The notes under the pieces are model-generated. The model ran no database searches. It saw only the letters and a program-made list of their open reading frames with translations, and was not told where the DNA came from. From positions 1-22,353 of the IMG/VR virus record IMGVR_UViG_3300046542_000191: DNA of 22,353 bases. One strand, given 5' to 3'. A program made the translations under genes and the position numbers. This document shows positions 15,486 to 18,236 of the stretch, piece by piece. Origin of the DNA: a virus. Each line of letters begins with the position of its first letter. The first letter of the stretch is position 1.

Positions 15486-15977
15486 CTAGTCGTGTCTCGC
15501 AAATTCTCCATGCAGCCTGTCGCGCAGTGTTGCAACTGCAGCTTTTGCCTCGGCCAAGCATTCGTAATGGCCGCCGTTATGAACCTTTCGGTTCAGCGTT
15601 ACTTGGACGTGCCATTTTTCGTAATCTGGATTCCAGCTAACCCCCTTCACGCCTGACTTGCTGGTCTTACGTAGCGCTTGGTTATGCTGGTTTTGGGATG
15701 GTGTTGAATCACGCAAATTGGCAATAGCGTTGTTGTGTCGGCACCCATCTATGTGGTCAATCTGGCCGCCGGGCCAAGCTCCGTGATGAATGAGCCATGC
15801 AACGCGGTGGGCTAGGTATGTCTTCCCGCCAATCTTGATTCGCATGTAGCCATTAGTGCCCTTGCTGCCAGCATTACGACCCGGAACGATTCGCGTGTTA
15901 GGCGAGCTATTCCAGGTCAGCAGTCCAGTAGAAGGGTTGTAGGCAAGGGCGTTTATTGCTTGATCATGAGTAAGCAT
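15486..15977 (-). CDS. HNH endonuclease with AP2-like DNA-binding domain
   Basis: A 163-residue free-standing HNH enzyme. YNPSTGLLTWN (13-23) is typical of the family's N-terminal repeat. The active-site region is HRVAWLIHHG (57-66) and IDHIDG (73-78) followed by HNN (81-83), then LRDSTPSQNQHNQ. The C-terminal SGVKGVSWNPDYEKWHVQV...EAKAAV is an AP2-like domain that binds DNA. Phage members act as homing-type nucleases. The start at 15977 has GGGAG six bases upstream. An in-frame ATG at 16085 would add 36 residues that do not look like the family, and it lies in the hairpin-rich leader. The gene is followed closely by the methyltransferase at 15442. Confidence 0.85.
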   Translation of the reverse strand: MLTHDQAINALAYNPSTGLLTWNSSPNTRIVPGRNAGSKGTNGYMRIKIGGKTYLAHRVAWLIHHGAWPGGQIDHIDGCRHNNAIANLRDSTPSQNQHNQALRKTSKSGVKGVSWNPDYEKWHVQVTLNRKVHNGGHYECLAEAKAAVATLRDRLHGEFARHD

Positions 15978-16103
15978 CTTTGACTCCCGGTTTGCTTCCC
16001 GGATGACCCTGTCTCCAAGGTCATCGAGGAAATCTGTTTGTTCGGGGGATTTGAAATCCCGACAGCTGACCGCGATGTAGTCCATGCAATGGCATCCCAC
16101 CCG

Positions 16104-16310
16104 TCAGCACTCTTTAATCCAGGGCCATCTACGCTGCTGGCCACGGGGTGAGGCATCCCCTGTACCGAACTTAAAGGTGTTCGGCTCGCTACCTTGTTTC
16201 GTTTCCGCCGGTGTCGATCCGGCAAGGGGTGTCGCTAAAGAGCGGCGGGTCTGTTGAAGCCCTGGCGCCTTGCTGCTTGGCGTTGAGGCAAATATGTACC
16301 AATGGTTCAT
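16104..16310 (-). CDS. Questionable 68-residue reading frame over a hairpin-rich region
   Basis: The frame begins MNHWYIFASTPSSKAPGLQQ and ends with GTGDASPRGQQRRWPWIKEC. It is Ser-, Pro- and Arg-rich with no domain. There is no ribosome site, and the best promoter nearby (16291-16319) would start transcription downstream of this ATG. I have an impression that similar short frames are annotated in Pseudomonas prophages, but this is memory and not a search. The hairpins listed under the next feature lie inside it, so a conserved RNA could explain conservation equally well. Confidence 0.25.
   Translation of the reverse strand: MNHWYIFASTPSSKAPGLQQTRRSLATPLAGSTPAETKQGSEPNTFKFGTGDASPRGQQRRWPWIKEC
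16123..16284 (-). ncRNA. Candidate structured RNA or 5' leader upstream of the HNH gene
   Basis: Five perfect or near-perfect stem-loops occur one after another: GGCCA/TGGCC (16123-16142), GGGG/CCCC (16145-16160), CCGAAC/GTTCGG (16165-16184), GCCGG/CCGGC with a seven-base loop (16207-16223) and CGCT/AGCG with a four-base loop (16233-16244). A sixth, GGGATTT/AAATCCC, lies at 16046-16060. A minus-strand promoter just upstream would begin the transcript near 16284 and lead to the HNH gene about 300 bases later. The clustering suggests a folded leader or small RNA. No known riboswitch or RNA family is recognised. Confidence 0.35.
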
Positions 16311-16338
16311 AATGGTCAAGTACCAAAAGTACATATTT
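16290..16338 (-). promoter_or_regulatory. Minus-strand promoter inside a repressor-like inverted repeat
   Basis: On the minus strand TTGACC (16319-16314) and CATATT (16296-16291) are separated by exactly 17 bases, a good sigma-70 match. The promoter lies within a perfect inverted repeat: AAATATGTAC at 16290-16299 and GTACATATTT at 16329-16338, 29 bases apart. The ATGTAC/GTACAT core of both arms also occurs three times between the repressor and cro genes. The likely meaning is a promoter under control of the phage repressor or Cro, feeding the structured leader and the HNH gene. Confidence 0.5.
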
Positions 16339-16350
16339 TTATCGCAGGCA

Positions 16351-16376
16351 CAAAAAAGCCCGCTCAATGGCGGGCT
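16351..16376 (-). terminator. Rho-independent terminator of the repressor operon
   Basis: The stem AGCCCGC/GCGGGCT (16357-16363 with 16370-16376) has a six-base loop. On the minus strand it is followed by six T residues (16357-16352), a classical intrinsic terminator. It ends the minus-strand operon of repressor, 144-residue protein and membrane protein, and separates it from the promoter at 16290. The 18 bases CGCAGGCACAAAAAAGCC at 16343-16360 are repeated exactly at 18733-18750. Confidence 0.8.
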
Positions 16377-16397
16377 ACGAATGTGCGGTGATGGCGA

Positions 16398-16640
16398 TCA
16401 GTGCTTCTGAAGGATCCGCTGAATAAGCTCGGGAGGCAATTGATTGAGCGCTGGACGCTCAGCGGGTGGCGGGCTTGCCGGTGGCAATTTGATTTCCTCC
16501 GCGACTCGCTTGGGTTGTGAATCGATTTGCTTGTACACGAGGGTCAGCTCGGTCTTGATCACATGAGCTGCATAGAGCGTGCTCAGGCAAACACAGGAAA
16601 ATCCAGCCACCATTATTGCTTGAGTGAGATTTAGCCTCAT
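16398..16640 (-). CDS. Small membrane-anchored protein in the repressor operon
   Basis: An 80-residue protein: MRLNLTQAIMVAGFSCVCLSTLYAAHVI forms one N-terminal membrane segment (residues 5-27), followed by a charged stretch (KTELTLVYKQIDSQPKRVAEEIK) and a proline-rich tail (PPASPPPAERPALNQLPPELI). It is probably inserted in the inner membrane; a lipobox is not clear. AGGA lies seven bases before the ATG. As the last gene before the terminator it may be expressed in the lysogen, as lysogenic-conversion or exclusion genes often are. That role is inference. Confidence 0.6.
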   Translation of the reverse strand: MRLNLTQAIMVAGFSCVCLSTLYAAHVIKTELTLVYKQIDSQPKRVAEEIKLPPASPPPAERPALNQLPPELIQRILQKH

Positions 16641-16724
16641 AGGGGTTCCTACCGTTTGTGTGCCGCGCGCAAACATTCAGGTCTTGGAGTGTTTTAGGCG
16701 GAACTCAGCGTGCTCCAGCAGTTT

Positions 16725-17159
16725 TCACCCAGCTTTAGCCTTGCTCAGTCGCATCGCAACGCTTTGAGCGCCGCCGAGTTTCTCGACAATTGCTTCCCAA
16801 GGCTTACTGGTGGCTACCGCCAGAGCTGCTGCATGCTTTCCCGTATCGCGAGACTCTACAGCCTCGCGGATCGTCAGCAGAAAACGCAAAAAATCGCCGC
16901 CGCTCACCGGGATCTGGCCAATTTCTGACGCCATTGTCGCCTCGGTCTCAAAAAAGCCGGATAGCCTGGTGCATGGCAGCCACATACCCTGCCAAGGACT
17001 CTCGACAATATTCGGAGGGGCCTGCGTTCGGTCCCAGTGCGTGTCATTGTGGCGTTGCAATATCCTAAGCGGCGTGCGTAATTGCATCGTCGCGCAGAAT
17101 TTAAAATGAGTGACGACATCGCCAGCTGGCCAATTCTGGTCGCTTGCCTTGTATTCCAT
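16725..17159 (-). CDS. Hypothetical protein cotranscribed with the repressor
   Basis: A 144-residue protein beginning MEYKASDQNWPAGDVVTHFKF. The C-terminal half (GGDFLRFLLTIREAVESRDTGKHAAALAVATSKPWEAIVEKLGGAQSVAMRLSKAKAG) is helical and basic and could bind nucleic acid; the N-terminal half is less regular. No family is recognised. The start at 17159 has GAGGG five bases upstream and lies 16 bases after the repressor stop, so both are in one operon. Internal ATGs (17084, 16934) could shorten it. Expression with the repressor suggests a function in the lysogen. Confidence 0.5.
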   Translation of the reverse strand: MEYKASDQNWPAGDVVTHFKFCATMQLRTPLRILQRHNDTHWDRTQAPPNIVESPWQGMWLPCTRLSGFFETEATMASEIGQIPVSGGDFLRFLLTIREAVESRDTGKHAAALAVATSKPWEAIVEKLGGAQSVAMRLSKAKAG

Positions 17160-17175
17160 GACAACCCTCGGCGTC

Positions 17176-17913
17176 TTACAGCATCCCGCCACGCCAGACT
17201 ACGCGGCCGATAATGCGAACCTCGTTTATTTCCCCGTCACGCAACGCCTCGTCGCCATAGCGAGCCTTGTCGGGGTTGTCGCTTCGAATGATCCAACCTT
17301 CGATGTCCGATTTCACTAGGCGCTTGACGATCGTTCCTTTGGTCGCGCTTTGCATCGCGAAGACTTGTCCGTCCTTTGGCTCGATTTTGGACTCATCAAC
17401 CAGCAGGACGTCGCCATCATTGATGGTCGGCTCCATGCTGTGGCCGCTGGCATAGATGACGTCCAGGTGACGCTGATTCAGGTTATTGGCGCGAAGCCAT
17501 GAGGACTTGAACGCCATAACGCCGCGAATCTCGACGTGGGTGTTGTCCTCGCCGCCACCTGTTGATCCCTGAGCTGTTAGTTGGAGAACGCCTGTATAGC
17601 CTGGCTCATTCTCAAGCTCGAACCCCCTGGGTGGGACTCGCTCGTCCAGAACGGGAAGGGTGACGGGCTCCTTCATTTCACCGCGGCCGTACTCAAGCCA
17701 CTCGACGCGAACGCCCAGGGCGTTGGCAACGGCCAGCATCTTTGCCCCGCCGGGCATCGACTCGCCATTCATCCATTTGCTGGTGGCCTTCGGGGTGACG
17801 CCAGCCATTTTTGCCAGGCGAGCACCTGCGCCCCATTCAGGGATCTGGTTGTGCGCAAGCGCGTCTTTCAGGCGGCCGACGAACGCGGCGCGCAAATCTT
17901 CTATTTGAACCAT
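17176..17913 (-). CDS. CI-type repressor with HTH and S24 peptidase domains
   Basis: A 245-residue LexA/CI-like repressor. The N-terminal helix-turn-helix is RLKDALAHNQ...ARLAKMAGVTPKATSKWMNGES (14-52). The C-terminal S24 domain has SGHSMEPTINDGDVLLVD with nucleophile Ser159 and GTIVKRLV with general-base Lys197. It would bind operators next to cro and keep the phage dormant. Between the HTH and Ser159 I see no Ala-Gly or Cys-Gly dipeptide, the usual self-cleavage site. The start at 17913 has no ribosome site, as in leaderless cI genes; an ATG at 17958 would add 15 residues and overlaps the operator region. The gene is divergent from cro. Confidence 0.85.
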   Translation of the reverse strand: MVQIEDLRAAFVGRLKDALAHNQIPEWGAGARLAKMAGVTPKATSKWMNGESMPGGAKMLAVANALGVRVEWLEYGRGEMKEPVTLPVLDERVPPRGFELENEPGYTGVLQLTAQGSTGGGEDNTHVEIRGVMAFKSSWLRANNLNQRHLDVIYASGHSMEPTINDGDVLLVDESKIEPKDGQVFAMQSATKGTIVKRLVKSDIEGWIIRSDNPDKARYGDEALRDGEINEVRIIGRVVWRGGML

Positions 17914-17996
17914 GGGTACATTTTCACATGCGCTTGCATGTACTTTCAGTTCCGACATAACATGTACCGTAAGTTCATATTTAACTCGGAGGCTCT
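17914..17996. promoter_or_regulatory. Repressor-cro operator and promoter region
   Basis: Three copies of the core ATGTAC/GTACAT lie at 17916-17921, 17938-17943 and 17962-17967, about 22-24 bases apart, like the three operators of a lambda-type switch. A possible rightward promoter is TTGCAT (17934-17939) with CATAAC (17956-17961), 16 bases apart, placing the cro start about 30 bases downstream. CATATT at 17976 is another possible -10 but would start transcription on the ribosome site. A leftward repressor promoter could not be fixed. Confidence 0.55.
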
Positions 17997-18236
17997 ATGC
18001 GGCCGCTCAAGAAATCGATCGACGACGCTGGCGGTGTTCCGGCGGTTGCGCAGGCTTGCGAAAAGACCCCTCGCGCCATTTACAAATGGATCGATGCGGA
18101 CGCTTTGCCGCGAACCGAATACACCGGTGAGACCCAATACGCCGAAAAAATTGCCGAGCTGGCTGCCTCCAATGGCAAGCCGTTCGAATCCGCCTGGCTG
18201 CTCGCCGAGGCGCGCCCGAAAAAATCAGCTGCATAA
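17997..18236 (+). CDS. Cro-like / YdaS-type helix-turn-helix regulator
   Basis: A 79-residue DNA-binding protein: [45 protein letters not shown]. The segment [17 protein letters not shown] (residues 16-32) is the helix-turn-helix, with the YKW recognition pattern of Cro/YdaS-type regulators. It would bind the shared operators and shut off the repressor, favouring lytic growth. GGAGG lies five bases before the ATG. It is divergent from the repressor, the expected place for cro. Confidence 0.8.

Follow-up and report, generated by a model that had tools for sequence, protein, structure and literature searches.

In phage lambda, the repressor gene is flanked by the divergent OL/PL and OR/PR, with spaced 17-bp operators governing each promoter. 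Escherichia phage HK022 (X16093), reached via a repressor search among named phages, has annotated oR1-3, oL1-2, pL, and pR, and its 17-bp operators with ATGTAC/ATGAAC half-sites are like those described here. The CI protein of HK022 is reported to bind adjacent operators cooperatively, and OL-OR looping takes place in vivo (PMC8053113). We analyzed a stretch of viral DNA of 22,353 nucleotides (IMG/VR record IMGVR_UViG_3300046542_000191, positions 1 to 22,353; in the following "the window"), in which divergent early promoters likewise flank the repressor gene in a lambda-like manner, each under spaced 17-bp operators. With high confidence, the site at 16290-16338 can be regarded as the OL/PL of a lambda-like switch between lysis and lysogeny, of the HK022 type and carried by a Pseudomonas phage, a reading drawn from the match to the HK022 layout, the conservation of the operators in relatives, and their exchange together with the repressor HTH. 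It is new for this contig and known in kind, the mechanism being textbook. The switch comprises the following elements:

16291-16319, minus strand: predicted early-left promoter PL (-35 TTGACC at 16319-16314, 17-bp spacer, -10 CATATT at 16296-16291)
16294-16310, minus strand: operator OL1, 17 bp, ATGAACCATTGGTACAT read in PL direction, overlapping the PL -10
16318-16334, minus strand: operator OL2, ATGTACTTTTGGTACTT, its last bases being the start of the PL -35
16357-16376, minus strand: intrinsic terminator, AGCCCGCCATTGAGCGGGCT plus T run, at the end of the repressor operon and immediately upstream of PL
16398-17192, minus strand: variable cargo slot separating PL from the repressor, occupied by two small genes (16725-17192 and 16398-16676)
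17176-17913, minus strand: CI-type repressor, HTH plus S24 peptidase, 245 aa from ATG 17913
17905-17921, minus strand: operator OR3, ATGTACCCATGGTTCAA, lying over the repressor ATG (17913) and spaced 33 bp from OR2
17938-17954, plus strand: operator OR2, ATGTACTTTCAGTTCCG, 24 bp from OR1
17962-17978, plus strand: operator OR1, overlapping the PR -10 region
17997-18236, plus strand: Cro-like protein (PHROG 35 transcriptional repressor), encoded at the head of the right operon

The operators, their spacing, and their overlap with the promoters are read directly from the DNA. All five are copies of one 17-bp palindrome, ATGTAC-N5-GT(A/T)CAT, and hold the five highest consensus scores across the 22-kb window; the full OL sites, ATGTACCAATGGTTCAT and AAGTACCAAAAGTACAT, reach 11/12 on the half-site consensus. 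Measured from center to center, OL1-OL2 and OR1-OR2 are each 24 bp apart, leaving a 7-bp gap between the paired operators in both cases, and OR2-OR3 are 33 bp apart. The preliminary description had placed the hexamer ATGTAC/GTACAT three times between repressor and cro and again in the left site, and we located it at 17916, 17938, and 17962 as well as at 16294 and 16329. The sequence it reported as shared by two sites, AAAGTACAT, occurs in the window only at 16326 and 17938 (minus strand), with 0.04 occurrences expected. Likewise, its perfect 10-base inverted repeat at 16290-16338 is present, the arms AAATATGTAC and GTACATATTT being fully complementary over 10 bases (82% when extended to 17 nt). 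Repressor-type operators are indeed found at this repeat; however, they are two adjacent 17-bp units, and the inverted repeat consists of the outer half-sites of OL1 and OL2. We rejected its reading as a single operator because 17-bp units with 5-bp centers fit all five sites and HK022. A search of literature text with GTACTTTTGGTAC gave no match.

So that the test would not be circular, OR1-3 alone served to train a weight matrix, with the OL sites left out. Applied to the whole window, it recovered OL1 at 21.9 bits and OL2 at 18.6 bits, the next match scoring 11.8. Among 1,000 dinucleotide shuffles, the OL1 score was reached in none and the OL2 score in three, and an OL-like pair of full 17-bp sites at 23-25 bp never appeared (0/1,000). 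These figures bear on the explanation that the inverted repeat arose by chance as a palindrome, or serves as RNA or terminator element without repressor binding, to which we assign a negligible probability. The hexamer alone would fit with chance, being mildly over-represented with eight copies in the window (five of them at the OL and OR regions) against 3.3 expected, so that its count alone is weak evidence. Against this explanation stand the absence of the full pair from the shuffles, the persistence of the site in more than 150 loci with a repressor-to-site interval that differs in both size and makeup, and the separate, proper terminator at 16357-16376. Because of this terminator, we also rejected the OL site itself as a terminator. 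A terminator-like GAGCGGGCTTTTTT is found in many relatives, including those with another operator type.

The minus-strand promoter TTGACC-17-CATATT, already noted in the preliminary description, is present at 16319-16291 with a start predicted near 16284. It is the sole sigma-70-like match between 15.4 and 18.8 kb, a number not above chance (one found, 1.5 expected). In PL direction, the OL2 end ...GTACTT leads into the -35 TTGACC and the OL1 end GTACAT into the -10 CATATT; CI bound at OL1/OL2 would cover both promoter elements. Relatives keep two short stretches that do not belong to the operators themselves, GAC/TAC following OL2 and ATATT following OL1. Conservation of OL2 among these relatives is biased, as this operator belonged to the seed of the search for them.

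Transcription from PL would enter the following region:

15978-16284, minus strand: putative untranslated PL leader of about 300 nt, its extent deduced from where PL lies and where HNH begins
16236-16243, minus strand: boxA-like GCTCTTTA inside CCGCTCTTTAGCGA, 50 nt after OL1
15486-15977, minus strand: gene for an HNH endonuclease (Pfam HNH_3 2e-14), opening the left operon

The order of leader and HNH gene under PL stands as previously proposed, whereas the gene start probably has to be moved. The mechanical call (15486-16100, minus strand, from GTG 16100) is over-long, as its first 41 codons resemble the untranslated leader in relatives, making ATG 15977 the probable start and giving a leader of about 300 nt. 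The PHROG 99 match begins at residue 34 of the long ORF. Downstream of the HNH gene, the left operon continues on the minus strand with methyltransferase-like, Gam-like, exonuclease-family, and helicase/methyltransferase genes. Homologous leader sequence was found at this place in relatives, and an Rfam search of the leader returned no family above threshold.

Of the 79 distinct leaders in the high-GC group, 64 contain the exact octamer GCTCTTTA, and so do 14 of the 56 lower-GC leaders; control octamers appear in none (0/79 in the high-GC group). The 50 nt that follow boxA, folded as a test for a boxB hairpin, did not clearly outperform shuffles (mean z -0.5), and such a hairpin was not supported. 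In HK022, the region after PL encodes the put RNA (PMC9378689). The conserved boxA suggests that the left operon may rely on Nus-type antitermination instead of HK022 put, with the leader as the element that would promote antitermination. As a tentative extension, which we rate as possible at best, a widespread group of Pseudomonas phages may combine HK022-type operators with a boxA PL leader, perhaps with Nus-dependent antitermination through the ~15-kb left operon.

On the other side of PL, the two small genes are probably co-transcribed with the repressor. A 15-codon in-frame extension upstream of the repressor ATG (MSELKVHASACENVP, 17914-17958, minus strand) runs through OR2 and OR3 and is also open in several relatives, probably as a by-product of operator conservation. 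Inspection by eye for the PRM position did not locate the repressor promoter.

Using the repressor as query, we retrieved 24 viral and 5 genome loci, 15 of which match over the full length including the HTH. The OL2-OL1 pair is present in 14 of these 15, at 62-5,195 nt beyond the repressor, the contig of the 15th ending too soon; in the phages Riah and pAN it follows 52 and 7 nt beyond the repressor, respectively. Pattern searches for OL and OR yielded at least 120 stretches each. Among the matches listed, all 85 loci with both sites have OL and OR in divergent orientation at a distance of 0.8-6.0 kb, with an OR gap of always 7 bp and an OL gap of 7 or 8 bp. Overall, the OL pair is conserved in more than 150 loci, with a repressor-OL interval varying in length and content.

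In relatives (e.g., L040, L048, L078, and L116), the interval from repressor stop to OL is a variable cargo slot that can reach about 5 kb, its content lying on the same strand as the repressor. Some of the cargo matches defense models (AbiGi 2e-55, PDC-S42 1e-34, PDC-M66A/B), and in this the slot can be likened to the rex region of lambda. Lower-GC phages (GC about 0.5; e.g., L043, L045, L046, and L053) carry the OL pair with a TTTACA -35 and an additional site, ATATAC...GTTCAT. It lies 53 bp upstream of OL2, a distance close to that reported between OL2 and OL3 of HK022.

A further 13 loci have a repressor related solely beyond the first HTH helices, and 12 of them have one other HTH in common (L021-L030, L033, and L034). 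These 12 are devoid of ATGTAC-type sites. Instead, CGGTATT-N10-AATACCG is found in the repressor-cro gap and at the OL position (e.g., L022, 5799 and 8265), at both places in 10 loci, with the two others cut by contig ends. At the OL position, these loci share with the type of the window both the terminator context and the leader that follows. They represent a second immunity type, which has its PL leader and the C-terminal portion of its repressor in common with that of the window. Such a joint change of OR and OL with the DNA-binding domain is what repressor action at the two sites would predict.

The same exchange speaks to the explanation that 16290-16338 is mainly a target of Cro or of another regulator (e.g., Rha-like) with local control of leader and HNH gene only, which we consider very unlikely. 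It gains something from a Cro resembling that of HK022 (60% identity over 48 aa), from the HNH gene being the first after the leader, and from a Rha-type regulator gene nearby. However, the operator type switches along with the DNA-binding domain of the repressor, and the site itself is kept in relatives while the leaders following it diverge. In addition, the corresponding HK022 sites are bound by CI (PMC8053113), and a scan of the minus strand revealed no strong terminator separating HNH from the remaining left operon or, within it, one gene from the next. The lambda-like OL/PL for the left operon that had been suggested in the preliminary description is backed by the HK022 match, the pair kept in relatives, and the HTH co-exchange, whereas the role it gave to Cro is one that we infer.

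Under the HK022-type OL/PL reading, we infer for this phage that CI binds its operators cooperatively and represses, that loops form, and that Cro acts as well. In a lysogen, CI dimers would sit cooperatively on OL1 and OL2, covering the -35 and -10 of PL, and the resulting shut-off would keep the leftward early operon silent (long leader, HNH, methyltransferase, Gam-like, exonuclease, and helicase). CI on OR1 and OR2 would shut off PR and cro, and the OL-bound and OR-bound CI, about 1.6 kb apart, would probably loop together. Upon induction, CI would be cleaved and both PL and PR would fire, with Cro probably occupying the same sites later. In practical terms, PL, PR, and all five operators become annotatable by sequence in many Pseudomonas prophages, and their immunity group becomes predictable from the repressor HTH. 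The paired exchange of operators with the HTH moreover provides a clean natural test of the sites that the repressor uses.

Compared with known systems, the window differs from lambda in operator sequence and in having two OL sites where lambda has three; also unlike lambda, OR3 of the window covers the repressor ATG at 33 bp from OR2. The classic Pseudomonas lambdoid D3 (AF165214) has a CI with 38% identity and three operator sites before cro; these operators differ (ATGGGAATACTCAT and alike), and ATGTAC-type OL/OR sites are absent from it. Riah (OR351070) and vB_PstS-pAN (MW651859) carry the same OR2-OR1 and OL2-OL1 modules around the repressor as the window, from which they differ in their early genes and in an OL located 7-52 nt after the repressor. 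In comparison with HK022, the distance from repressor to PL is 841 nt in the window, with two genes and the terminator in between, versus about 60 nt, and the -35 is TTGACC versus TTTACA. HK022 furthermore has OL3 and OFR, whereas no OL3 or distal OFR-type site rose above background in our scan of the window, and it has the protein-free put RNA where the leader of the window has boxA. Overall CI identity is just 31%, which we counted against the main reading, as we did the absence of OL3 and OFR and the chance-level promoter scan, but the recognition helices, VTPKATSKWMNGES in the window and VTPKAISKWFNGES in HK022, are almost identical. The switch layout is identical to that of HK022: the spacings agree for oR1-oR2 (24 bp), oR2-oR3 (33 bp), and oL1-oL2 (24 bp), and the pL -35/-10 is interleaved with oL2/oL1 at the same places. 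The HK022 cI ATG lies inside oR3, as does the repressor ATG within OR3 of the window. On the level of single operators, oL1 (ATGAACTTTAAGTACAT) and oL2 (ATGTACTATTGGTACTT) of HK022 are near-identical to OL1 and OL2 of the window, respectively, as is its oR2 (CGGAACTGATAGTACAG) to OR2.
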